Of a stretch of 64,000 bases of DNA, positions 1,554 through 64,000 are shown one piece after another. The DNA lies in NCBI RefSeq assembly GCF_014645495.1, contig NZ_BMLV01000002.1:425191-489190 (forward strand), read 5' to 3'. Numbering within the stretch: the first letter of the stretch is position 1; each line of letters begins with the position of its first letter. The notes under the pieces were generated by a model. It made no database searches. It was given only the letters and a program-made list of their open reading frames with translations, and was not told the origin of the DNA. Source of the DNA: Cloacibacterium rupense (lineage in GTDB: Bacteria; Bacteroidota; Bacteroidia; Flavobacteriales; Weeksellaceae). The position numbers were made by a program, and so were the translations under genes.

Positions 1554-3833
1554 TTAGAAATTATACTGAAAGCCGAATTTAATGCCGAATTTTCTAGTAT
1601 CTATATTTTCTAGATAATTACCTCTCCAATTAAAGTCTATTCTAAGGATTCTAATATTCCCAAAGCCAATATTTTCTATACCAAAACCATATTCATAATA
1701 AGGTTTATTGGGTGCTTTAAGCAATATATTGGTGGAATTGATATTTTTAGAATAATCACTAAGACTACCGATAGCTGTTCTATAAAAAGCGACTTCCCTT
1801 AATTTCAACTTTTTAATCAAGGGAATGTAAGATAAAAGTTTCCCATTAAAATGATGCTCTGCATGGAAAGTGGCATATTGGTCTGTAACAAATTCATAAT
1901 AATCTAGCAACGCAAAGGTATTGGGGATTAAAGAATAAGATTGGTTGCCCGGAATTACATTTTGCAAAGCTAGTGGAACTGTACTGAAGTTTTTTCCGGC
2001 TTCTACATTTAGCAATAATCTACCAAAACTCTTCAACATAATCGGTTGGAAATAATAAAACTGAAGTTTGCTGTAATTAAAATCAGACCCGAAAACACCT
2101 TTTAAACCTTGGGTATATTTCAAAACTAAAGTTGGTGCTAGTGTGCTATGCTCATATCTGTCTACTCCATATTGTGAAAACTTAGCACCTGGTCTTGCCG
2201 TGATACTAAAAGCCATTTTAGTGTCTTCTAATTCAGAAAATAGTTGTCCGTTTTTGTAATAATCAAGAGAAAATTTTTCTGGATTGGCAGATTTTATGGT
2301 TTGATAAGTGGCGTCTAATCTTAACGTAAAATTTTTCAATGGGTCTATCGCTGCAAAAGCACTGGTCTGATTTACGGAACTCAAATTAAAATTGTTTCCC
2401 ACGTTGAGAACGCCAGATGAAGCAAAAGAACGGGTCATAATTCCTTCGTCTGTGGTTAATTGTGCGCCTAGCTGCATTACGTCTCTTCTAGTACCAGCGC
2501 CAATGGTAAATCTATTGTCTCTGTCAAACATTTTTCTAGCTTCGAAGCCATATTTTAACTGCCTGTCTTTGAAACCATAAGCTGTATAAAATGCAGCCCT
2601 CCACATATCATTTGGAGTGAAATAAGTTCTAGCTCCTAGTCTTAGCCTAAAGCCTTCTACATCATTAAAACCTACAATAGAATATATATCTCCGATATCT
2701 ACAGAATTAAAAACATTAAAATATCCTGAAGCCAACGTTTCATAGAGTTTTACTGCTTTTTTAAACTTCGGAACTTTATTAAGCTCGTCAATCATTTTAT
2801 AGATATTCTGTTCAGATTCTGTAAGGGGTTCTTTTCTTTCTAATTCCCAGTAATCATCACTTTTTTGAACGCTTGCATCGCTTAGAGATTCTGTACTTCT
2901 CTCAAAAATATCGTCTTCTAAATTTTGGTCAAAAGAATATTTAGAAAAAAGAGTCGTTTTCTTTGCCAAAAGACTTTTAGATTTCTCATTTTTCCCGAAA
3001 ATAGACATTTGAATTTCCTGATAATTTCTCCTTGGGAGAAAAATAGAGTCACTAGGATTGTAGTATTCTAGTTCGTAATAAAAATTATTAACAAAATTGA
3101 CATTGATGTTTCGGGTAGACTTCAATGTAGAACGCACCACGGCATAATTTTCTTTAGAAATATAAACAACTCCATAAATAGACAAAACATCTTTTCTTTT
3201 TGGGGTATATTTAATTTTATAACAATCTGTTCCAGAGATATTTTCGTCATTCAACAGCACATAGTCATAACTCGCAAAACCATCTCTGGCAATAGGACTG
3301 GTAAAACCTATATTAAAGAAATTTAAGGTGTTGTCATAAATATTAATTTCTTTATAAAGATTCTTGGCGGTATTGGCTACAACTTCATTATTAGAAAAGC
3401 CAGATGATTTATTGGCAATAACGTCTCTTTTCTCTTTTTTAGGATTGTTTTTTCCAAAATTTTTATAAACAGATTCATTGAAATAGATAGGAAGCGTAAG
3501 ATTATTCCCGTTATCAGTAGAGTCTGCATATTGAAAAACAAAATCTAATCCTTTGAAAATCTTTTTCTTAGTAAATGCACTATCAATATTGGTAACATCT
3601 ACTTCTATTTTTTCATATTCATTAAATTGATAGTCCTTAAATCCGCCCAAGCCATTGCTTTTTTTGCGTTTCCATACTTCCTGCAAAATTTCGTAAGCAG
3701 GATTTTCTTTTTTCTTCAGTTTCTTTTTGGTAGATTTCAACTCAACGCTTTCTATAGATTTTTCTTTAATCTGGGCAGTCAAAACAGTTGAAAACAATAT
3801 AATAAACAAAAATATTATTCTTCTTAAATTCAT
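1554..3833 (-). CDS. DUF5686 family outer-membrane protein
   Basis: 759 residues with a signal peptide ending at about residue 20 (FSTVLTAQ). The N-terminal half carries the NPAYEILQEVW motif typical of DUF5686, often found in Bacteroidota proteins that also have a carboxypeptidase-like regulatory domain (not visible here). The C-terminal half has alternating hydrophobic/polar strands and ends in aromatic FGIKFGFQYNF, as expected of a beta-barrel inserted in the outer membrane. The function of the family is unknown. It starts 177 bases from the divergent surE. Confidence 0.8.
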   Translation of the reverse strand: MNLRRIIFLFIILFSTVLTAQIKEKSIESVELKSTKKKLKKKENPAYEILQEVWKRKKSNGLGGFKDYQFNEYEKIEVDVTNIDSAFTKKKIFKGLDFVFQYADSTDNGNNLTLPIYFNESVYKNFGKNNPKKEKRDVIANKSSGFSNNEVVANTAKNLYKEINIYDNTLNFFNIGFTSPIARDGFASYDYVLLNDENISGTDCYKIKYTPKRKDVLSIYGVVYISKENYAVVRSTLKSTRNINVNFVNNFYYELEYYNPSDSIFLPRRNYQEIQMSIFGKNEKSKSLLAKKTTLFSKYSFDQNLEDDIFERSTESLSDASVQKSDDYWELERKEPLTESEQNIYKMIDELNKVPKFKKAVKLYETLASGYFNVFNSVDIGDIYSIVGFNDVEGFRLRLGARTYFTPNDMWRAAFYTAYGFKDRQLKYGFEARKMFDRDNRFTIGAGTRRDVMQLGAQLTTDEGIMTRSFASSGVLNVGNNFNLSSVNQTSAFAAIDPLKNFTLRLDATYQTIKSANPEKFSLDYYKNGQLFSELEDTKMAFSITARPGAKFSQYGVDRYEHSTLAPTLVLKYTQGLKGVFGSDFNYSKLQFYYFQPIMLKSFGRLLLNVEAGKNFSTVPLALQNVIPGNQSYSLIPNTFALLDYYEFVTDQYATFHAEHHFNGKLLSYIPLIKKLKLREVAFYRTAIGSLSDYSKNINSTNILLKAPNKPYYEYGFGIENIGFGNIRILRIDFNWRGNYLENIDTRKFGIKFGFQYNF

Positions 3834-4982: not shown

Positions 4983-6455
4983 ATGTTAATAAAAAAATAT
5001 AATTATCAAGCATTTTTTTTTCTAGTTGTTTTTATGACTTTCTTATTAGGAAGTCTTGTAAAAAACAATATTTTATTAACAGATGATCTTGCATTTGTAG
5101 ACAATGCTAGATTTGCAAAACATAAAAATTTTTTTGAATATATTTATTCTTTCATGAATACAGAAACTATGACGTCTAGACCGGTTTCTGCTTTTATCAC
5201 TGCACTTATAACTTATGCCAGTAGTTATTATGAACGTTTTTATTATGTAGCTTACCTTTTTTTTATCATATCTGTCTTCTTTGTTTTCAAAATCACACAG
5301 ATTTTTACCAAAAATTTTTTCTTCTCTATTGCTACCGTCTTTTTATATGTTTTCTTGCCTGTAGGAAATGCTCTTGTTTTTTCACCGATAATGCTGAATT
5401 CTGCACTAGCAACTATTTTTTATTGTAGTAGTTTAATTTTCCTTTTAAAAGAACAAAAACATAAATATGATGTCATTTATAGTGCTTTATTTTTTCTTTT
5501 ATCAATTTTATCATACGAGATTTTTTTGCCTCTTATATTATCTAATCTTTTTTTGATCAAAAAAAGAAAAATATCATATTTGGCAGGTATCATAATCACC
5601 TATCTTATCTATAAAAAAATTATTGAACCAAGCCTTTTTGAAAATTATTATCATAGAGAACAAGTAAATATTTTATTAAATATCAAAAGAGATTTTAAAA
5701 TTTTATTAAAATCAATAAAAGTTATAATATATGATTTGTCCATAAGCGTTATTCGTGCAATAAAAGCAATTAGATATTATTCTTTCCAAGATTTTATATC
5801 CCTTATTTTAATAAGTACTTCATTTTTATATTTCATTTCTAGAAACAAAATTGAAGGGAAGCCTTTTGAAAAAACTCCTAATCTTATTCATTTCCTAATT
5901 TCTTCCTTAATACTTAGTTTTACCATTTTTTTAGTCTCTAACTACGAACCATCTATCAAAGGTTTTTCAAGTAGGACCATGGGAGGAATCAGATTATATT
6001 TCTCATTTTTTTTAATGTACATTTTTATAAAATATAGGTTAAAAACATTATTTAGTATCACTATTATTATTTTTATCATAAATTCTATCAGTGTAAAAAA
6101 TGCATGGCAATATAGCTCTGAAATAAACAATGAAATTTTTAAAAAAATTTCTTTAAAAAAAATAACGACTAAAAAAGCTCCTTATCTTTACATTGTTTTT
6201 AATAAAGAAAATATCAATTTAAAAAAAGAATTTTCTGATAAACAAAAAGAAGATAGAAATTATTTTTTTAGAAGAGACCAATTTGTAGCAGAAGAGCCCT
6301 TGTTTTATGCTCCTTGGGAATCAGACTACTTGAAACATAAATTTAATATAGAAAAAAAAATAAATATTGAATATTATTTTTATAACGATAAAGTAAAAAC
6401 AAAACCATATTATTTATTTGATTTCCATAGAAATAATTTACTTTTAATAAAATAG
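4983..6455 (+). CDS. Polytopic membrane protein, possible GT-C type glycosyltransferase
   Basis: About 490 residues with roughly ten hydrophobic segments and a soluble, lysine-rich C-terminal tail of about 110 residues. An acidic pair (LLTDDLAFVDNARF) lies in the first periplasmic loop and is followed by an SRPVSAF stretch. This layout (acidic residues after the first membrane helix) occurs in GT-C glycosyltransferases and GtrII-like proteins, but I cannot name a family. The ATG at 4983 (MLIKKYNYQ) is preferred to one eight codons upstream because the hydrophobic segment follows directly. Its base composition is clearly AT-richer than surE and guaC, which suggests weak constraint or transfer. 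Function unknown. Confidence 0.65.
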   Translation: MLIKKYNYQAFFFLVVFMTFLLGSLVKNNILLTDDLAFVDNARFAKHKNFFEYIYSFMNTETMTSRPVSAFITALITYASSYYERFYYVAYLFFIISVFFVFKITQIFTKNFFFSIATVFLYVFLPVGNALVFSPIMLNSALATIFYCSSLIFLLKEQKHKYDVIYSALFFLLSILSYEIFLPLILSNLFLIKKRKISYLAGIIITYLIYKKIIEPSLFENYYHREQVNILLNIKRDFKILLKSIKVIIYDLSISVIRAIKAIRYYSFQDFISLILISTSFLYFISRNKIEGKPFEKTPNLIHFLISSLILSFTIFLVSNYEPSIKGFSSRTMGGIRLYFSFFLMYIFIKYRLKTLFSITIIIFIINSISVKNAWQYSSEINNEIFKKISLKKITTKKAPYLYIVFNKENINLKKEFSDKQKEDRNYFFRRDQFVAEEPLFYAPWESDYLKHKFNIEKKINIEYYFYNDKVKTKPYYLFDFHRNNLLLIK

Positions 6456-6524
6456 AGTTAACCTTATTTAAAAATTTCTTTTTTTTATCTTTTAATTTTA
6501 TTTAATTTTATAAAAAATACCAAA

Positions 6525-7568
6525 ATGCGCATAGAATACGAAATAAAATTAGGTTTCAAAGATGTAATGTTTCGCCCAAAACGTTCTACACTTAAGTCTC
6601 GTTCTCAAGTAAGTCTTGAAAGAGTTTTTACTTTCAGAAATTCTAAAAAAACTTGGACTGGCGTTCCTATTATTGCCGCAAATATGGATACCGTAGGAAC
6701 TTTTGAAATGGCAACTGCTTTATCTTCTGAAAAAATAATGACGGCAATTCATAAACATTATTCTATAGAAGAATGGACAGCTTTTCTAGAGAACTCGCCA
6801 GAAAGCATTTATCAATACATTGCCATAAGCTCTGGAACTGGCAGTGCAGACGAAGAAAAAATAAAACAAATCATCGGTAAATTCCCTAAAATAGATTTTA
6901 TCTGCATCGATGTGGCCAACGGTTATTCTGAACATTTTGTGAATTTTGTGAAAAAAGTAAGAGCAGATTTTCCAGATAAAACCATTATCGCAGGAAATGT
7001 GGTAACTGGTGAAATGGTAGAAGAACTTATTTTGGCAGGTGCAGATATTATAAAAGTAGGAATTGGGCCTGGTTCTGTTTGTACTACCAGAGTAAAAACG
7101 GGTGTTGGTTATCCTCAACTTTCTGCCATTATAGAATGTGCAGATGCGGCTCACGGTTTGGGTGGTCATATTATTGGAGATGGTGGTTGCAAAGTTCCGG
7201 GAGATGTTGCAAAAGCGTTTGGTGGCGGTGCAGATTTCGTAATGCTTGGAGGAATGCTAGCTGGTCACGATGAAAGTGGAGGAGAATTGATAGAAGAAAA
7301 TGGTAAAAAATATAGACTTTTCTACGGAATGAGTTCTAAAACAGCCATGGATAAACACAGCGGTGGTGTTGCAGAATACCGTGCTTCTGAAGGAAAGACT
7401 GTGAAAGTAAAATACAAAGGTCCAGTTTCTGAAACCGTGAAAGATATAACAGGTGGTGTGCGCTCTACTTGCACTTATGTAGGTGCTTCTCAATTAAAAG
7501 AGCTTTCCAAAAGAACAACTTTTATAAGAGTTCAAGAACAACACAACGAAGTGTTTGGAAATGAATAA
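6525..7568 (+). CDS. guaC: GMP reductase
   Basis: 347 residues of the IMPDH/GMPR TIM-barrel fold without the CBS domains of IMP dehydrogenase. Catalytic C186 sits in GPGSVCTTR, and the flap region [20 protein letters not shown] matches the eukaryote-like GuaC class. It converts GMP to IMP with NADPH in the cytoplasm, linking guanine salvage to the adenine branch. The start [14 protein letters not shown] is standard. It is a single-gene unit closed by a terminator. Confidence 0.96.
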
Positions 7569-58140: not shown

Positions 58141-59379
58141 ATGATGCTTATGAATTACAATGAACTCTATGAAATTTTAAAAGAAAACTTCGAAAAAGAA
58201 GGAAATTTTAAGACCATTGAAGACCTCAATGTAACGATAGAAACCATTCATTTTCATTCTAAAAAAGCAGATTTACTCAATGGTTCTTTTTCTTCCACTT
58301 CTTGCGAAAAACACCAAACACATTTTAAGGAAAGTAATGAAAATCAAACACTTTACGGTTTTTCAAGTGTCGATGTAAAAGATTTTGACATCGAAAGAAA
58401 TAAGCATTTTGACTATTATATTCTCAAAAGAGCAGATGTAGAAGTTGCAGAAGGAACGCTTATTTTTTTCCATGGATTGAATGAAAAAAAGTGGGATAAA
58501 TATTTGCCTTGGGCTTATGAATTGGCTCAAAAAACTAAGAAAGCCATTATTCTTTTCCCGATTGCATTTCACATGAACAGAGCCGAAGAAATCTGGAGCG
58601 ATAGACATGCGATGGTAGAAATAGCACAATTCAGAAAGAAAAATTATCCCGAAAATACTAATTGTTCTTTTGTAAATGCGGCGATAAGTTCTCGTTTAGA
58701 ATCTCATCCTCAAAGAATTTTTTGGTCTGGTTTTCAGACATATTCAGATGTAATACAAGTGGTGAAAGATATTAGGAATCAACAAATTAAAAGTATTTCA
58801 ACTGAAACTTCTATAGATTTGTTTGGCTATTCTATTGGTTCGTTTTTGTCAATGATTCTAAAAATGGCAGACCCCGAAGGAATTTTTGAAAATTCAAAAT
58901 TATTCTGTTTTTGTGGCGGAATGACGATTGACAGAATGTTCCCAATTTCTAAATACATTATGGACGCAAGAGCTGCCATAAAAATGCAAACCGTTTTTGC
59001 GGAATTGTTAAGTTCTGATTTCCAGTCTGATGAAAGATTAGGTCATTTTCAGGACGAAAAATTACACCCTCAGGAAAGTTGGTTCAAAATGATGTTGAGG
59101 TACAATTATTTCCAAAAAGAAAGAGAAGAAAGAATTAGAAAACTGCATCATCAAATCAAACTCTATGTCCTTGAAAAAGATGAAGTTGCACCACCCATAG
59201 AAGCGCTCAATACTTTGCAAGGCGGTTACAGAAATATAAAAACTGAGGTAGAAATTCAGGATTTTCCGTATGAATATTCGCACATGGTTCCGTTTCCTTT
59301 AACCAATAAAATTCAGAAAGAAGTTACGGAAGCTTTTCAGCATTTTATCAATTCTGCAAGTGAGTTTTATAATTGTTGA
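58141..59379 (+). CDS. DUF6051 family alpha/beta hydrolase-like protein
   Basis: 412 residues; the ATG at 58150 is an alternative start. A nucleophile elbow-like GYSIGSF sits at about residue 231, with an early EGTLIFFHGLNEKKWDKYLPWAYELA (oxyanion HG) and a late VLEKDEVAPPIEAL plus YSHMVPFP, which could supply the Asp and His of a triad. DUF6051 is an uncharacterised Bacteroidota hydrolase-like family. No signal peptide. Confidence 0.75.
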   Translation: MMLMNYNELYEILKENFEKEGNFKTIEDLNVTIETIHFHSKKADLLNGSFSSTSCEKHQTHFKESNENQTLYGFSSVDVKDFDIERNKHFDYYILKRADVEVAEGTLIFFHGLNEKKWDKYLPWAYELAQKTKKAIILFPIAFHMNRAEEIWSDRHAMVEIAQFRKKNYPENTNCSFVNAAISSRLESHPQRIFWSGFQTYSDVIQVVKDIRNQQIKSISTETSIDLFGYSIGSFLSMILKMADPEGIFENSKLFCFCGGMTIDRMFPISKYIMDARAAIKMQTVFAELLSSDFQSDERLGHFQDEKLHPQESWFKMMLRYNYFQKEREERIRKLHHQIKLYVLEKDEVAPPIEALNTLQGGYRNIKTEVEIQDFPYEYSHMVPFPLTNKIQKEVTEAFQHFINSASEFYNC

Positions 59380-59381
59380 TA

Positions 59382-59696
59382 TTAAAAAGCATTAATAATA
59401 ACCGCGCCACGTTTTTCTACGCCGTAAATTGTTTTTGCGCCATTTTCATTCAAAAGATTTACAGATTCTATTCTAGATTTTTTTAAAGGAATTTTTATAG
59501 TGTCTAGATTTTCATCATATTTAAAAACTTCACCATTAATAATGATAAGGGGATTTTTAGATAAAATTCCATCTGAATAGCCTCTTTTTACTTCTTGGTT
59601 GAGGAAAAATTTGTCATCATTTTTTTCTTCTAAAACAAAGGTTTTTGGATGGCAACTCATTAAGAATAGAACAACAAAAGCAGTCAATTTTTTCAT
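59382..59696 (-). CDS. Small lipoprotein with TonB-receptor plug-like sequence
   Basis: 104 residues with a lipoprotein signal (LFLMSCHP, Cys 15). The body NPLIIINGEVFKYDEN, RIESVNLLNENGAKTIYG and KRGAVIINAF follows the order of SusC/TonB-dependent receptor plug domains (PLIVIDG, IESIEVLKDASAxAIYG, GVIxITTK), but no barrel follows. It lies eight bases after the LytTR gene. Confidence 0.65.
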   Translation of the reverse strand: MKKLTAFVVLFLMSCHPKTFVLEEKNDDKFFLNQEVKRGYSDGILSKNPLIIINGEVFKYDENLDTIKIPLKKSRIESVNLLNENGAKTIYGVEKRGAVIINAF

Positions 59697-59703
59697 ATTT
59701 CAA

Positions 59704-60447
59704 TTATTTTACCAACCAATCTTTAAAATCTTTCACGCGTTCTCTACTTACCGTAATTTCCTCGGAAGGTTGTGCTTGTAATTCTACTTTATAATACGGT
59801 GAAGTGTGGATGTTTTTTATACAATCTGAACTGATGATAAACTGTCTATTCACTCGGAAAAACGTCTTTTCATCTAACACTTCTTCCAGTTCATCTAATG
59901 TAAAATCTGTAGGGAAACTTCGTTCTAAAGTTTGGGCGTAAACAATTTTATTTTCAGAATAAAAACAACAAATTTCTTCGGTTTTTATCACCTTTAAATT
60001 GTACCCGATTTTCACTAAAATTCTAGACAATTTCGGTTGGTCTTCTTTGATTAAAGATTTCATTTCCAAAGCGTTGTGCGTTTCTTCGGAAGGTAAAAAA
60101 CTTTTGAATTTTTCAATTGCTTTGGCTAAATCTTCTTCGGAAATTGGCTTCAATAAGTAATCAATAGAATTGAGTTTGAAGGCTTTCAACGTGTATTGAT
60201 CAAAAGCTGTAGTGTAAATGATGAAGCTTTTGGTAGGGATTTTTTCAAAAATATCAAAAGACAAACCATCGCCTAAAACAATGTCTGAAAATATCAATTT
60301 TGGGTGTTCATTTTTACTGAACCAATCTACCGCTTCTTCTACAGAATGAATAGTTGCAACCAATTGTAAATCAGTAAAATTGCTCAGTAATCTTTCGAGT
60401 TTTCTAGCAGCTGGTTTTTCGTCTTCTATGATAATTGTTCTAATCAT
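59704..60447 (-). CDS. LytTR-family response regulator
   Basis: 247 residues. The receiver domain has acidic E8/D9 and phospho-acceptor D55 in IFSDIVLGDG, then K near 106. The C-terminal LytTR DNA-binding domain ends in EEITVSRERVKDFKDWLVK. It should be phosphorylated by the LytS-type kinase encoded upstream in the same operon. Two matching LytTR half-sites lie before the operon (63151-63183), which supports autoregulation. Confidence 0.9.
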   Translation of the reverse strand: MIRTIIIEDEKPAARKLERLLSNFTDLQLVATIHSVEEAVDWFSKNEHPKLIFSDIVLGDGLSFDIFEKIPTKSFIIYTTAFDQYTLKAFKLNSIDYLLKPISEEDLAKAIEKFKSFLPSEETHNALEMKSLIKEDQPKLSRILVKIGYNLKVIKTEEICCFYSENKIVYAQTLERSFPTDFTLDELEEVLDEKTFFRVNRQFIISSDCIKNIHTSPYYKVELQAQPSEEITVSRERVKDFKDWLVK

Positions 60448-60522
60448 TTTTCAAAAAGTTTGAATTGGTTTGATGTGGTTTGAATTGGTTTAAAAAAGTT
60501 AATTGTTAAATAAACAACGCCA

Positions 60523-60813
60523 TCACCTCTTATCTTTATCCATTAATTCTCGGATTTTCTTTTCTTCCCAGTTTTTTCCGAGGAAAAAGTTAGGCAAAAA
60601 TACAGATAAACCGTGGGAAGCTAAACCTATTCCCCAAAAGAAAGTTCCCCAGAAATTTTTGAATTCAAAATTACCTGTTTTTTGGTGGTTAACGAAAACG
60701 AGAAGAATATTTACCAATACAAAAACCAAGGCGTGTATATAAAATCCTTTGATTTGCTTGATGCGCTTTTTAGCTTGTAAATATTTGATATTTTCTTTGT
60801 TATAATTTTCCAT
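60523..60813 (-). CDS. 2TM domain-containing protein
   Basis: 96 residues from the ATG at 60813 (MENYNKENIKYL); a start nine codons upstream overlaps the preceding gene further. Two hydrophobic helices and the closing FLGKNWEEKKIRELMDKDK motif match PF13239. Three small 2TM proteins and one fused to the kinase lie in this operon. Confidence 0.8.
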   Translation of the reverse strand: MENYNKENIKYLQAKKRIKQIKGFYIHALVFVLVNILLVFVNHQKTGNFEFKNFWGTFFWGIGLASHGLSVFLPNFFLGKNWEEKKIRELMDKDKR

Positions 60814-61099
60814 TTGAGTTGTTTTTAAGGTTTCTTTCAATCATTTTTCTTTCCCAATCGTAATCAAAAACAAAAAGTTTCACAGCTTTTACTGCCAAGA
60901 TAATCCCCCAAATCCAGAAAATAATAGAAACTCTCCCGAATCCGAAATTAAATTCATTCAACTGAAATATGTTTTCTCTATTGAAAAATATAAATACAAT
61001 GCAGAAAACCAATACATTAACTCCGAATTTTCTGATTTTTGCTACGTGTTCTCTGGCTGCTTCATATTTTATTTTGTCAAGTTCTCGATTTTCCATCAT
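60800..61099 (-). CDS. 2TM domain-containing protein
   Basis: 99 residues. EHVAKIRKFGVNVLVFCIVFIFF, the second helix FGRVSIIFWIWGIILAVKAVKLF and YDWERKMIERNL fit the 2TM family, though the NWEER motif is altered to DWERK. It shares one base with the previous stop (TAATG). Confidence 0.78.
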   Translation of the reverse strand: MMENRELDKIKYEAAREHVAKIRKFGVNVLVFCIVFIFFNRENIFQLNEFNFGFGRVSIIFWIWGIILAVKAVKLFVFDYDWERKMIERNLKNNSNGKL

Positions 61100-61410
61100 T
61101 ATTTATTTTTGAGTTGTTTATCCATTAATTGTTTTGTTTTTCTTTCTTCCCAATTATGGAAATAAGGCACAAAAAGGTAAATGCCATAACCAAAAAGAAA
61201 AATGGCCCAAGAAACAACCATCCAAACCGCATAATTTCTTGAAATATCAAAGATGTTTCCGTTGTAATTTTTTCTTACAATTAAGTAACCTATGATTAGA
61301 AATCCTAGAACCATATAATAATACGTTTTGATTTCTTTTACTCTCTTTTCTGCTTTTTTGTAAGCAATATTTTTGTTAGAATTTTCTTGATTTTCCATAG
61401 CTATTTCCAT
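61099..61410 (-). CDS. 2TM domain-containing protein
   Basis: 103 residues; the ATG at 61398 (MENQENSNKN) is an alternative start. AEKRVKEIKTYYYMVLGFLIIGYLIV, a second helix and HNWEERKTKQLMDKQ match the family. It overlaps the kinase gene by ten bases. Confidence 0.8.
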   Translation of the reverse strand: MEIAMENQENSNKNIAYKKAEKRVKEIKTYYYMVLGFLIIGYLIVRKNYNGNIFDISRNYAVWMVVSWAIFLFGYGIYLFVPYFHNWEERKTKQLMDKQLKNK

Positions 61411-62747
61411 TTATTAGCGTCTTTTTCTTCTTTTTCTAGGTATTTTCTAATTTGTCTTTCTTCCCAATCTTTGCCAATTCCGAAGACTTGAAAAGCGTGT
61501 GCTACCACACCAATTCCCCAACCTAGCATTGGCCAAAATGCCCAATAATAGCCAGGAGAAGTTTTCCAATTGATGATGAATAAAAATGGGATAAAAATAC
61601 AATATGAGATAAGATTTCCATAGAAACCTTTCAGTTCTTCTACTCTTTTGGCTGCTTTTTCGTAAGCCATTTGTTCTTCTGAAGGAGAGTATGTGTTCAT
61701 AGCTTTTATTTTTTCTTTTAAAATAGGGAGTTTTACTCGGAAAAAATCTTCTGATTTTTCCACAAAAACATTTCTGTTGGTTAATAAATTATATCTCGAA
61801 ACAATGTTGGCCAAACCTACTCCGGTAGATTTATTAGGCAATTCTCTGGTTTGCAAATTGTTTTCAATGATAAGGTTTCCGTTTTCTGCAAAGATTTTGA
61901 TGTTCAAAGGTTTAGAGGAAGTTGCAAAATTATGTTTGATAGAATTTTCAAGCAAAAGCTGCAAAGAAAGTGGCACTACAAACCCTTTTTTGTCTTCGTC
62001 TGAAATAATGAATTCAAAAGTTACCGCATCTTCGAATCGGGTTTTCAACAATTCGCAATAGGTCTTTGCAAAATCTATTTCTTCTTCTACCGAAACCAAT
62101 TCTTTGTCTTTTTGTTCGAGAACATATCTGTAAATCTTTGACATTGAGTTCGTAAACTGTTGTGCTTGCTTTGGGTTTTCTTCAATCAGAGAATCTAAAA
62201 CATTCAGAGAATTGAATAAAAAATGCGGGTCTAATTGATTTTTAAGACTTTCAAATTGTGCATTGGCAGATTTAGCGATGAGTTTTTGTTCGACTACTTC
62301 TTTTTTAGCATTTTGTTTCATAGCCTGCATAAAACCTTTAGCGTGAAGAAATGCCGAGATAAGTAATGCAAAATTGATAAAAAACCAATTGGTAAAATTC
62401 CATTTTGAACTGAAAAATTCTGCGGGATTTAAACCTTGAATTAGTACAAAATTGATGTAATTGAGAAGGTATGTTAAAGAAATATTTAAAATTAATGTGC
62501 CAAGGATGGCAAAGATTGTTCTTTTATTAGTTTCTTCTGACCAAGAAAATTTTTTGTCAAGATAATCATTTAGAAAACCATTACCAATCCCGTATCCAAA
62601 AGTGTACATTACTGAAATAAGGAAAGTATAGATGTAGTTTTCTAATGATTTTTCGGGTGAGGTCAAGAGGAAAAACAAGATGCTTCCTCCGAAACTTATC
62701 CAAAGTAACGTTTTAAGGCTTTTTCTAAAATTTTCTATGGAGAACAT
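61401..62747 (-). CDS. LytS-type sensor histidine kinase with C-terminal 2TM domain
   Basis: 448 residues. Four N-terminal membrane helices (about 12-140) lead to the LytS-type H-box QLDPHFLFNSLN (H175), then an ATPase domain with NSIKHNF and GVGLANIVSRY. From about 358 a complete 2TM domain follows (AAKRVEELKGFYGN to GKDWEERQIRKYLEK). The kinase-2TM fusion directly links the family to this signalling pathway. Confidence 0.9.
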   Translation of the reverse strand: MFSIENFRKSLKTLLWISFGGSILFFLLTSPEKSLENYIYTFLISVMYTFGYGIGNGFLNDYLDKKFSWSEETNKRTIFAILGTLILNISLTYLLNYINFVLIQGLNPAEFFSSKWNFTNWFFINFALLISAFLHAKGFMQAMKQNAKKEVVEQKLIAKSANAQFESLKNQLDPHFLFNSLNVLDSLIEENPKQAQQFTNSMSKIYRYVLEQKDKELVSVEEEIDFAKTYCELLKTRFEDAVTFEFIISDEDKKGFVVPLSLQLLLENSIKHNFATSSKPLNIKIFAENGNLIIENNLQTRELPNKSTGVGLANIVSRYNLLTNRNVFVEKSEDFFRVKLPILKEKIKAMNTYSPSEEQMAYEKAAKRVEELKGFYGNLISYCIFIPFLFIINWKTSPGYYWAFWPMLGWGIGVVAHAFQVFGIGKDWEERQIRKYLEKEEKDANKWK

Positions 62748-62764
62748 TTCTAAAAATTTACTAA

Positions 62765-63052
62765 TTATTTGTTCATATATTCTTTAATTTTTCTTTCTTC
62801 CCAGTTGTTACCTAGGATAAAATCTGGTGCAAAAACAGACATGGCGTGTGCCAATAAACCGAATCCCCAGAAAAGGGCCGTCATATAACCATCTGTATTA
62901 GCAAAACCTTTGTTGGCGATCACACTGTTTGAAACTATAATCATTAGGTTTACACAAATATAAACAATCGCGTGAATGTAAAAACCTTTAATTCTTTTTA
63001 CTTTTCTTTTGGCCATTTCTAATTTGCTGTTGGTTGTGTTGTAAGTTTCCAT
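62765..63052 (-). CDS. 2TM domain-containing protein, first gene of the operon
   Basis: 95 residues. AKRKVKRIKGFYIHAIVYICVNLMIIV and LFWGFGLLAHAMSVFAPDFILGNNWEERKIKEYMNK are the full PF13239 pattern. It is transcribed first, 18 bases ahead of the kinase gene, from the promoter at 63112-63142. Confidence 0.88.
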   Translation of the reverse strand: METYNTTNSKLEMAKRKVKRIKGFYIHAIVYICVNLMIIVSNSVIANKGFANTDGYMTALFWGFGLLAHAMSVFAPDFILGNNWEERKIKEYMNK

Positions 63053-63111
63053 TTTTTTAAGTTTTTAAAATTAATATTTTGTGATTGTGTAGATGTTTTA
63101 ATTTCTTGATG

Positions 63112-63142
63112 TAAAGGTATTGTAGGAGAGGATGTTTTCAAA
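63112..63142 (-). promoter_or_regulatory. Promoter of the 2TM/kinase/LytTR operon
   Basis: Minus-strand TTTG (63142-63139), a 19-base spacer and TACCTTTA (63119-63112), one mismatch from TAnnTTTG. The expected start near 63105 gives a leader of about 53 bases. Confidence 0.6.
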
Positions 63143-63150
63143 TTATATGT

Positions 63151-63183
63151 TACTGAACGGTAATTTTTTTGTACTGAACGGTA
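63151..63183 (-). promoter_or_regulatory. LytTR operator: two direct repeats
   Basis: On the plus strand TACTGAACGGTA occurs at 63151-63162 and 63172-63183, 21 bases apart. The minus-strand core ACCGTTCAG matches the published LytTR half-site pattern (T/A)(A/C)(C/A)GTTN(A/G)(T/G) at every position. The nearer repeat ends eight bases before the -33 element. Confidence 0.7.
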
Positions 63184-63192
63184 TTTTCAAGG

Positions 63193-63238
63193 GTTCCCCT
63201 CTTTCAGAAGGGTGGCTGAGCGAAGCGAAGTCGGGGTG
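63193..63238. repeat. GC-rich block sharing GAGCGAAGCG with 8563-8668
   Basis: The stretch from CCCCTCTTTCAGAAGGG to GTCGGGGTG has a short CCCCT...AGGGG-like pairing and the ten-base GAGCGAAGCG at 63218-63227. It lies between operator and terminator. Confidence 0.4.
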
Positions 63239-63258
63239 TCAAAAAAATAAAAAAACAA

Positions 63259-63295
63259 AAAACCCTTTTTGCGTTTGGAACGTAAAAAGGGTTTT
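63259..63295 (-). terminator. Strong terminator after the TPR gene
   Basis: AAAACCCTTTTTGCGTT (63259-63275) pairs with 63279-63295 (one G-T pair), loop TGG, followed on the minus strand by a long T-rich stretch. The core resembles the inner hairpin of the element at 56633-56667. Confidence 0.88.
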
Positions 63296-63315
63296 GAAAA
63301 AATCTAATTGATAGT

Positions 63316-63972
63316 TTATTTAGCCTGAGAGATAAAATAATTCGCTTCGCCTTGTCCCCAATTTGGATCAACAGAAGATTTTATTTTGTAAGTTTTGAAT
63401 TGTTCCAAAGCTTTCTTGAAAAGTTCAATACCTTTAGATTTACTTCCCCCGAATTGCTCAGGAGTGTAATATAAATCTTCGGCTTCTAGAATGGAAATTC
63501 TAGGATTTTCAGGATCCAATTCTTTAGCTTTAGCTAATGCTTGTTGTGCGGCTTGGCCTTCGGTTTGCCATCTTTCCATAGGATTTACCATCATTTTCAA
63601 TCCGTGGTTCATTTTTTTCAAAAGAAAAATTTCTGCGTTATTTGGCGAAAGCGCTTCAGCTTTGTCAATATAATTTTGAGCTTCTTTTGCTACATCATCT
63701 AATTGAGCGACTTGATTTTTCTGCATCAGCTCTCTTCCTTTTTTGATGATAGAAAGAGCGGCATAATAATACGGTTGCCAAAGTGTTTTTTCTTTGTCTC
63801 CAATTCTTGCAAAATCATTGGCTTGAGCAGTGTAATCATCAGGATTAGCTTTAGGCATTTCAATCATTTGAACTTTTGGAAGCATCGCTTTTTCGTAAGC
63901 AGTTTGAGCGAAGCTGTAAGTTGTTGTAAATGTGATTGCAAGGGCTAAAATGGTTTTTTGTAACGTTTTCAT
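63316..63972 (-). CDS. Secreted TPR-like protein
   Basis: 218 residues with a signal peptide (about 1-22, TTTYSFAQ). Helical repeats with AEALSPNNAEIFLLKKM and AKELDPENPRISILEAEDLYY are TPR-like. The pattern DLYYTPEQFGGSKSKGIELFKKAL suggests a cell-envelope role, but the function is unknown. A single-gene unit with its own terminator. Confidence 0.75.
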   Translation of the reverse strand: MKTLQKTILALAITFTTTYSFAQTAYEKAMLPKVQMIEMPKANPDDYTAQANDFARIGDKEKTLWQPYYYAALSIIKKGRELMQKNQVAQLDDVAKEAQNYIDKAEALSPNNAEIFLLKKMNHGLKMMVNPMERWQTEGQAAQQALAKAKELDPENPRISILEAEDLYYTPEQFGGSKSKGIELFKKALEQFKTYKIKSSVDPNWGQGEANYFISQAK

Positions 63973-64000
63973 ATTAACTGTTTTTTAATTGTTTAAATTT

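Follow-up and report, generated by a model that had tools for sequence, protein, structure and literature searches.

The closest described control sites are those of two LytTR systems. At the agr P2 and P3 promoters of Staphylococcus, direct repeats are bound by a dimer of the LytTR regulator AgrA, with the centre of the site near -60 (PMC4227749). In the LRS systems HdrRM and BrsRM of Streptococcus mutans, in which a LytTR regulator is paired with a membrane inhibitor protein, the sites are 9-bp repeats, mostly with a 12-bp spacer and mostly 10 bp before the -35 element, and positive autoregulation by HdrR has been shown (PMC6193735). The genes next to the site studied here bring in a third system, the Hus haemophore uptake system of Porphyromonas gingivalis, whose haemophore HusA has the groove residues W130 and Y164 (PMC6173696). 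In the parts of the Hus literature at hand, no LytTR regulator is named for hus, and HaeSR is described as the regulator of hmuY, kgp and rgpA (PMC6173696, PMC10100897).

The window, that is, the whole stretch of DNA that was analysed, comprises 64,000 nt of Cloacibacterium rupense, and positions refer to it unless a contig or locus is named. A preliminary description had reported two 12-bp direct repeats with 21-base periodicity, eight bases upstream of a TTTG-N19-TACCTTTA promoter and in front of an operon for a LytS-type kinase and a LytTR regulator, and each part of this was borne out. Read on the plus strand, the 12-mer TACTGAACGGTA occurs twice, exactly, at 63151-63162 and 63172-63183, with a start-to-start distance of 21 nt; a repeat search lengthens the pair to 16 nt (94%). 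On the minus strand the arrangement is ACCGTTCAG-N12-ACCGTTCAG, 10 nt ahead of TTTG-N19-TACCTTTA. The predicted distal LytTR half-site lies at 63174-63182 and the predicted proximal half-site at 63153-63161, each within one of the 12-mers. The -33 element TTTG (63139-63142, minus strand), which is degenerate in relatives, is 8 nt from the 12-mer and 10 nt from the 9-nt core, and a 19-nt spacer separates it from the -7 element TACCTTTA (63112-63119, minus strand), which is of the Bacteroidota type TAnnTTTR. If the -7 element ends at -4, the transcription start of the kinase operon, which the preliminary description had expected near 63105, would be at about 63108, and with the -7 box at -11 to -4 the operator would be centred at about -59.5.

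The half-site agrees with what we take to be the LytTR consensus; on that consensus, two half-sites of about 9 bp and of LytTR form, set one two-turn step apart, make the site a predicted LytTR-bound direct-repeat operator. A search for the operator pair at up to 3 mismatches gave a single match in the window, whereas 0 of 100 shuffled sequences contained one. Between the husA-like gene and the operator, the repeat search also found a terminator-like inverted repeat on the minus strand (63259-63295), followed on that strand by a T-rich run. Since these separate the site from the upstream gene, it is plausible that the kinase operon has its own promoter. A search of Rfam over 59300-64000 gave no match. 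Near the operator, at about 63190-63242, there is also a short repeat element with GAGCGAAGCGAAGTCGGGGTG, of which the window holds one copy; a second copy, in the opposite orientation, was seen by eye before the receptor operator described below (about 3670-3725 of locus L012).

The operon runs on the minus strand from 63052 down to 59704, perhaps to 59382, and encodes four small 2TM proteins, the LytS-type kinase and the receiver-LytTR regulator. Its first gene, for 2TM protein a, is at 62765-63052 (Pfam PF13239, E 1.3e-25). The histidine kinase gene (61401-62747) carries the LytS-type domain (PF06580, E 2.6e-25) and a C-terminal 2TM domain (PF13239, E 3.9e-28), and is followed by the genes for 2TM proteins b (61099-61410, PF13239, E 1.4e-9), c (60800-61099, E 3e-9) and d (60523-60813, E 1.5e-26; the listed ORF extends to 60840, with a TTG start). 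The response regulator, the predicted binder of the site, is encoded at 59704-60447 (LytTR domain PF04397, E 5.3e-20; receiver domain PF00072, E 2.3e-11). A lipoprotein-like ORF of 104 aa (59382-59696), 7 nt past the regulator gene, is a possible last gene of the operon; Pfam and NCBIfam gave no match to it at E <= 0.01, and among seven related loci it was found in genome G010 alone at the cut used. Five 2TM units are thus counted in the operon (60523-63052), four free and one fused to the kinase. PF13239 is described as a domain of unknown function.

Both signalling proteins keep their catalytic residues. The DPHFLFN box and N268 of the kinase are invariant in 13/13 aligned proteins (13 of 14 rows, one having been dropped for a stop in its translation), and D55 and K100 of the regulator in 11/11. 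With a His_kinase domain and an intact H box on one side, and a receiver with its phosphoacceptor Asp and a LytTR domain on the other, the pair is a LytS/LytTR two-component system. The small 2TM proteins a, b and d diverge fast, with 58-72% identity to their counterparts in the same genus (genomes G056, G010, G039, G070 and G080); the identity of the regulator to those of the same genomes is 95-96%. The membrane sensor of the kinase (residues 1-140, window 62328-62747) has 56% identity to that of the nearest relative, G089, and the kinase core and regulator 98%, while the sensor is closer to that of the more distant G019 (71%, core 92%). At the DNA level, blocks of 60 columns are 48-75% identical to G089 in the sensor region and 83-100% on the core side. 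From these alignments, it is possible that the sensor domain has been exchanged between relatives.

The preliminary description had held that the site gives a searchable operator and suggested a genome scan, and the scan returned a regulon of three sites. The genome (3.17 Mb, 13 contigs) was searched with the pattern ACNRTTCRG-N12-ACNRTTCRG at up to 2 mismatches. This degenerate pair had 12 matches, and the reversed control 15, and exactly three pairs in the genome had zero mismatches, all on the minus strand and within 3.3 kb. One, at contig 488343, is the operator of the kinase operon. The other two, which the preliminary description had missed, lie beyond the right edge of the window: that of the 218-aa husA-like gene just past it, at contig 489239-489268 (window 64049-64078), and that of a TonB-dependent receptor gene at contig 491622. 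A TAnnTTTR box is found exactly 33 nt past the pair at all three sites. The nine weaker matches (1-2 mismatches) were dropped as they have no -7 box 33 nt on, the distance that was examined. The three sites share one build and mark the sensor's own operon and the genes beside it.

Spacing was studied in the best 80 of 265 loci with an orthologous regulator (1.59 Mb), which come from Cloacibacterium, Kaistella, Chryseobacterium, Epilithonimonas, Soonwooa and some MAGs. The strict half-site formed 57 pairs at 21 nt and 0 at other spacings up to 45, and its reversed control one pair, at 10. A relaxed half-site, [ACG]CN[AGT][TC]TC[AG]G, gave 137 pairs at the 21-nt spacing, whereas the other spacings from 10 to 60 averaged 0.54 pairs (maximum 8); the reversed control had 0 at 21 nt, with fewer half-sites (820 versus 1698). 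Because these 80 loci were also the source of the relaxed form, its composition is uninformative, and the information lies in the spacing, the distance to the -7 box and the identity of the targets. A -7 box follows 136 of the 137 relaxed pairs, at 33 nt (81) or 34 nt (55), and the targets of these 136 sites are kinase or 2TM genes (82), receptor genes (42), HusA-like genes (10) and hydrolase genes (2). At least one such site is present in 70/80 loci and none in 10/80. The preliminary description had taken absence of the repeat before homologous operons as the result that would speak against it; in fact 65/80 loci carry a relaxed pair in front of the kinase gene or a 2TM gene, with the -7 box at 33 or 34 nt from the pair. 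At a score cut of 18, a site lay upstream of 31/76 kinase, 33/60 receptor, 4/62 HusA-like and 2/3 hydrolase genes, and these numbers increase with the relaxed half-site. Many husA genes in these loci have no site of their own; in L065 and L074, both of genus g20, husA comes a short way behind the receptor gene. In these two loci a second operator also precedes a free-standing 2TM gene immediately ahead of the regulator gene, which gives two control points per cluster.

The -33 bases are degenerate across the 80 loci, as is expected of an activator-dependent promoter. Autorepression by response regulators is common, and the same operator and regulator might instead act by repression, or the unphosphorylated form alone might bind, with the signal de-repressing the regulon; AgrA represses one promoter through a site just downstream of that promoter (PMC4227749). 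The sites here, however, keep a fixed place upstream that does not overlap the promoter, and all but one of the 137 pairs have the -7 box at 33/34 nt. This is the position of activators at AgrA and LRS promoters, and together with the degenerate -33 bases it makes repression distinctly unlikely.

The prediction was put to the family: the pattern from the three C. rupense sites, with the -7 box, was run on 296 Weeksellaceae genomes. It found 131 sites in 88 genomes (128 in 87 when the source genome is excluded), and the reversed pattern found 0. In a sample of the order, the strict pattern occurred in 19/39 genomes of the family versus 0/207 of other families. The next gene was identified for a subset of 50 out of 131 sites, spread over four other genera: 30 were assigned automatically, all in genus g20, and 20 were hand-picked, mostly away from the regulator (3 in g20, 2 in g23, 13 in g9 and 2 in g26). 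It was a receptor gene at 27, a secreted alpha/beta hydrolase gene at 12, a kinase or 2TM gene at 8 and a HusA-like gene at 3, with 0 others. The presence of another short repeat element close by, at about 63190-63242, might suggest that the operator is itself a chance or mobile repeat with no regulatory role. We rejected chance on the shuffles, the reversed control (131 sites versus 0) and the fixed geometry, and with 50/50 inspected targets falling in four gene families such an origin can be given almost no credence.

The hydrolase is a protein of about 265 aa with PF12146/PF00561 (one member scanned). Homology searches of the C. rupense genome gave no match to it or only matches of 28% identity, and it is therefore taken as absent from this genome. 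In the near relative G089 (locus L148), all four units stand in a row, each with its own operator. There the hydrolase gene and its operator lie between the husA-like gene and the kinase operon (5445-7565 of that locus); the equivalent interval of the window, 63053-63315, has 263 nt only. In G010 (locus L059) the 14-kb locus that was retrieved lacks the receptor and husA-like genes, and an operator and promoter of the receptor type stand directly before the kinase operon. This arrangement is a natural promoter exchange, and it agrees with co-induction of the units.

The regulator encoded at the end of the kinase operon is one of four LytTR matches in the genome, and an AraC-family gene adjoins the receptor gene. 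The operator might therefore be bound by another LytTR protein or by the AraC-family protein, with the kinase/regulator operon merely one target among several. Three observations make this very unlikely. The three other LytTR genes have none of the 12 pair matches in the 12-kb regions that surround them, and the half-site has the form that we take to be that of LytTR sites. Moreover, among 60 genomes the strict motif was present in 18/31 whose regulator is at least 58% identical, in 0/13 with a regulator of 39-52% identity and in 0/16 without a match (18/31 versus 0/29; Fisher 2.6e-7, a value that ignores kinship and is overstated), so that the motif tracks close orthologues of the regulator. 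The strict pattern is missing in the other 13/31 genomes with a close regulator. In ten loci of the family with a diverged regulator (L088-L097), a free search for a repeat with a -7 box gave only AT-rich or weak pairs, and operators were found in 0/10.

What the regulon does is suggested by the 218-aa protein encoded at 63316-63972 (minus strand), the gene whose operator lies outside the window. In Pfam it has weak TPR matches only. Its AlphaFold model (mean pLDDT 89.2) was compared with known structures: by Foldseek, P. gingivalis HusA (6bqs) was the sole hit at E <= 0.001, with E 1.7e-10, and the alignment of the model with HusA by VIA-align had a Z score of 22.8 (rmsd 3.5, 192 residues aligned), versus 14.9 for the next best structure. 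A profile of 14 orthologues searched against solved structures again found HusA (6bqs/6crl, PG_2227), at E 9.5e-36 and over residues 24-211; no other structure reached E <= 0.1. W130 and Y164 of HusA align with W135 and Y169 of the 218-aa protein, and both positions are aromatic in 14/14 aligned sequences. By its near full-length homology, TPR-like fold and aromatic groove residues, the protein is assigned to the HusA haemophore family. It is a HusA homologue, and it is predicted to bind porphyrin or haem. The receptor gene adjoins it in C. rupense; a single-sequence search for solved relatives of the receptor found none at E <= 0.01.

The operator and the autoregulation could be as proposed and the regulated genes still serve another purpose, such as uptake of a different hydrophobic nutrient or a response to envelope stress, the HusA fold having been reused. 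TPR-like folds bind many ligands, the hydrolase and the 2TM proteins are unnamed in the parts of the Hus literature at hand, and no named haem domain was found by Pfam in the membrane sensor of the kinase. Against this stand the profile search, in which HusA was the only solved structure to match and did so over almost the whole protein, the wide margin in Z score over the next structure, and the conservation of both groove aromatics. A role outside porphyrin uptake thus seems unlikely, if less so than repression or a different binder.

HusA-family proteins were found in 41/198 genomes of the phylum. A HusA match was present in 38 genomes outside the family, and 20 loci from these make up a distant set. 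A homologous receptor is encoded near HusA, on the same strand, in 18/20. Kinase and regulator genes are found in HusA's orientation in 11/20, and these loci were called linked; HusA stands without co-oriented LytTR genes in 9/20, among which L288, having the genes nearby in another orientation, was counted as unlinked. The best pair anywhere in the 14-kb locus was found ahead of the receptor or husA gene in 7/11 linked loci versus 0/9 others (Fisher 0.005, overstated as kinship is ignored). In L300 the top-scoring pair is followed by a -7 box at 33 nt and is flanked by the receptor and husA genes; as it falls beyond the preset range, this locus was counted as a miss. Of the seven top pairs, that of L302 alone has the -7 box 33 nt on; in L296 the site ranked second has it too. 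The highest scores in L291 (14.1) and L297 (15.3) are similar to those reached by the best unlinked loci, which go up to 14.9. The link of HusA with a LytS/LytTR pair is therefore not confined to the family, and the same is probably true of the operator in diverged forms, which mostly lack a -7 box at the distance seen within the family.

Taken together, the site is likely to be an operator at which a LytTR regulator activates transcription; its two-component system would regulate its own operon and a Hus-like regulon for porphyrin/haem uptake, a reading in which the binder, the activation, the ligand and the signal are what we infer. The LytS-type kinase would sense a signal at the membrane and phosphorylate D55 of the regulator. 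A dimer of the regulator would then bind the two 9-bp half-sites side by side on the same face of the DNA, the 21-bp step being about two helical turns. Centred near -60, just upstream of the contact with RNA polymerase, it would activate a promoter that has a proper -7 element and often a poor -33 element. By activating its own operon the regulator would set up positive feedback, and it would co-induce the genes for the HusA-type haemophore, the TonB-dependent receptor and, where present, the secreted alpha/beta hydrolase. The sensor thus very probably switches on both itself and the neighbouring uptake system, and the signal would be haem or porphyrin, or a shortage of it.

A more far-reaching proposal, which we hold to be rather doubtful, is that the LytS/LytTR pair and its 2TM set, four free and one fused to the kinase, form an old, unrecognised regulator dedicated to Hus-type systems in the Bacteroidota. 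The 2TM proteins might form or tune a sensor that reports porphyrin from HusA and the receptor to the regulator, and the sensor might be swapped between species as a cassette while the core, regulator and operator stay fixed. The 2TM domain PF13239 is tied here to a specific sensory operon, and its role is therefore testable.

In the open-licence literature, among the matches listed, no paper joined LytTR with HusA or described the operator, and none assigned a LytS/LytTR and 2TM system to a Hus-like regulon. The Riemerella pair RAYM_RS09735/09740 was considered as the same system and rejected, as it is described as of BaeS/OmpR type in the part of the paper at hand (PMC5399024), and a phage-shock paper that mentions LytTR and 2TM does so in other contexts in its accessible part (PMC11237479). 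A search for terms in the main text of an RNA-seq study of Riemerella under iron limitation found no wording on LytTR, histidine kinases, TPR or response regulators (PMC5429918). A single repeat has thus led to a defined regulon with an operator that can be searched for in Weeksellaceae relatives. It has also led to a candidate for a regulator dedicated to haemophore uptake of the Hus type; the Hus literature, as far as it was available, names none.

In architecture the operator is an ordinary LytTR operator of the known AgrA/LRS type. Like the AgrA operators, that of C. rupense consists of direct repeats just upstream of the promoter, centred at about -59.5, with LytTR binding predicted here; unlike them, it serves a Bacteroidota -33/-7 promoter and an uptake regulon rather than quorum sensing, under a LytS-type kinase with 2TM proteins. 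The layout of repeat and spacer resembles that of the LRS, as does the presence of a membrane protein gene in the operon. To our knowledge, however, the LRS have neither a kinase nor a receiver domain, and the C. rupense operon, which encodes both a histidine kinase and a receiver domain, is not one of them. As in the Hus system of P. gingivalis (HusA, HusB, HusC, HusD), a HusA-family haemophore gene adjoins a TonB-dependent receptor gene (PMC6173696, PMC10100897, as far as available); the receptor of C. rupense is a candidate counterpart of the receptor HusB. Unlike the genes of that system, those of C. rupense are linked to a LytS/LytTR system with 2TM proteins.
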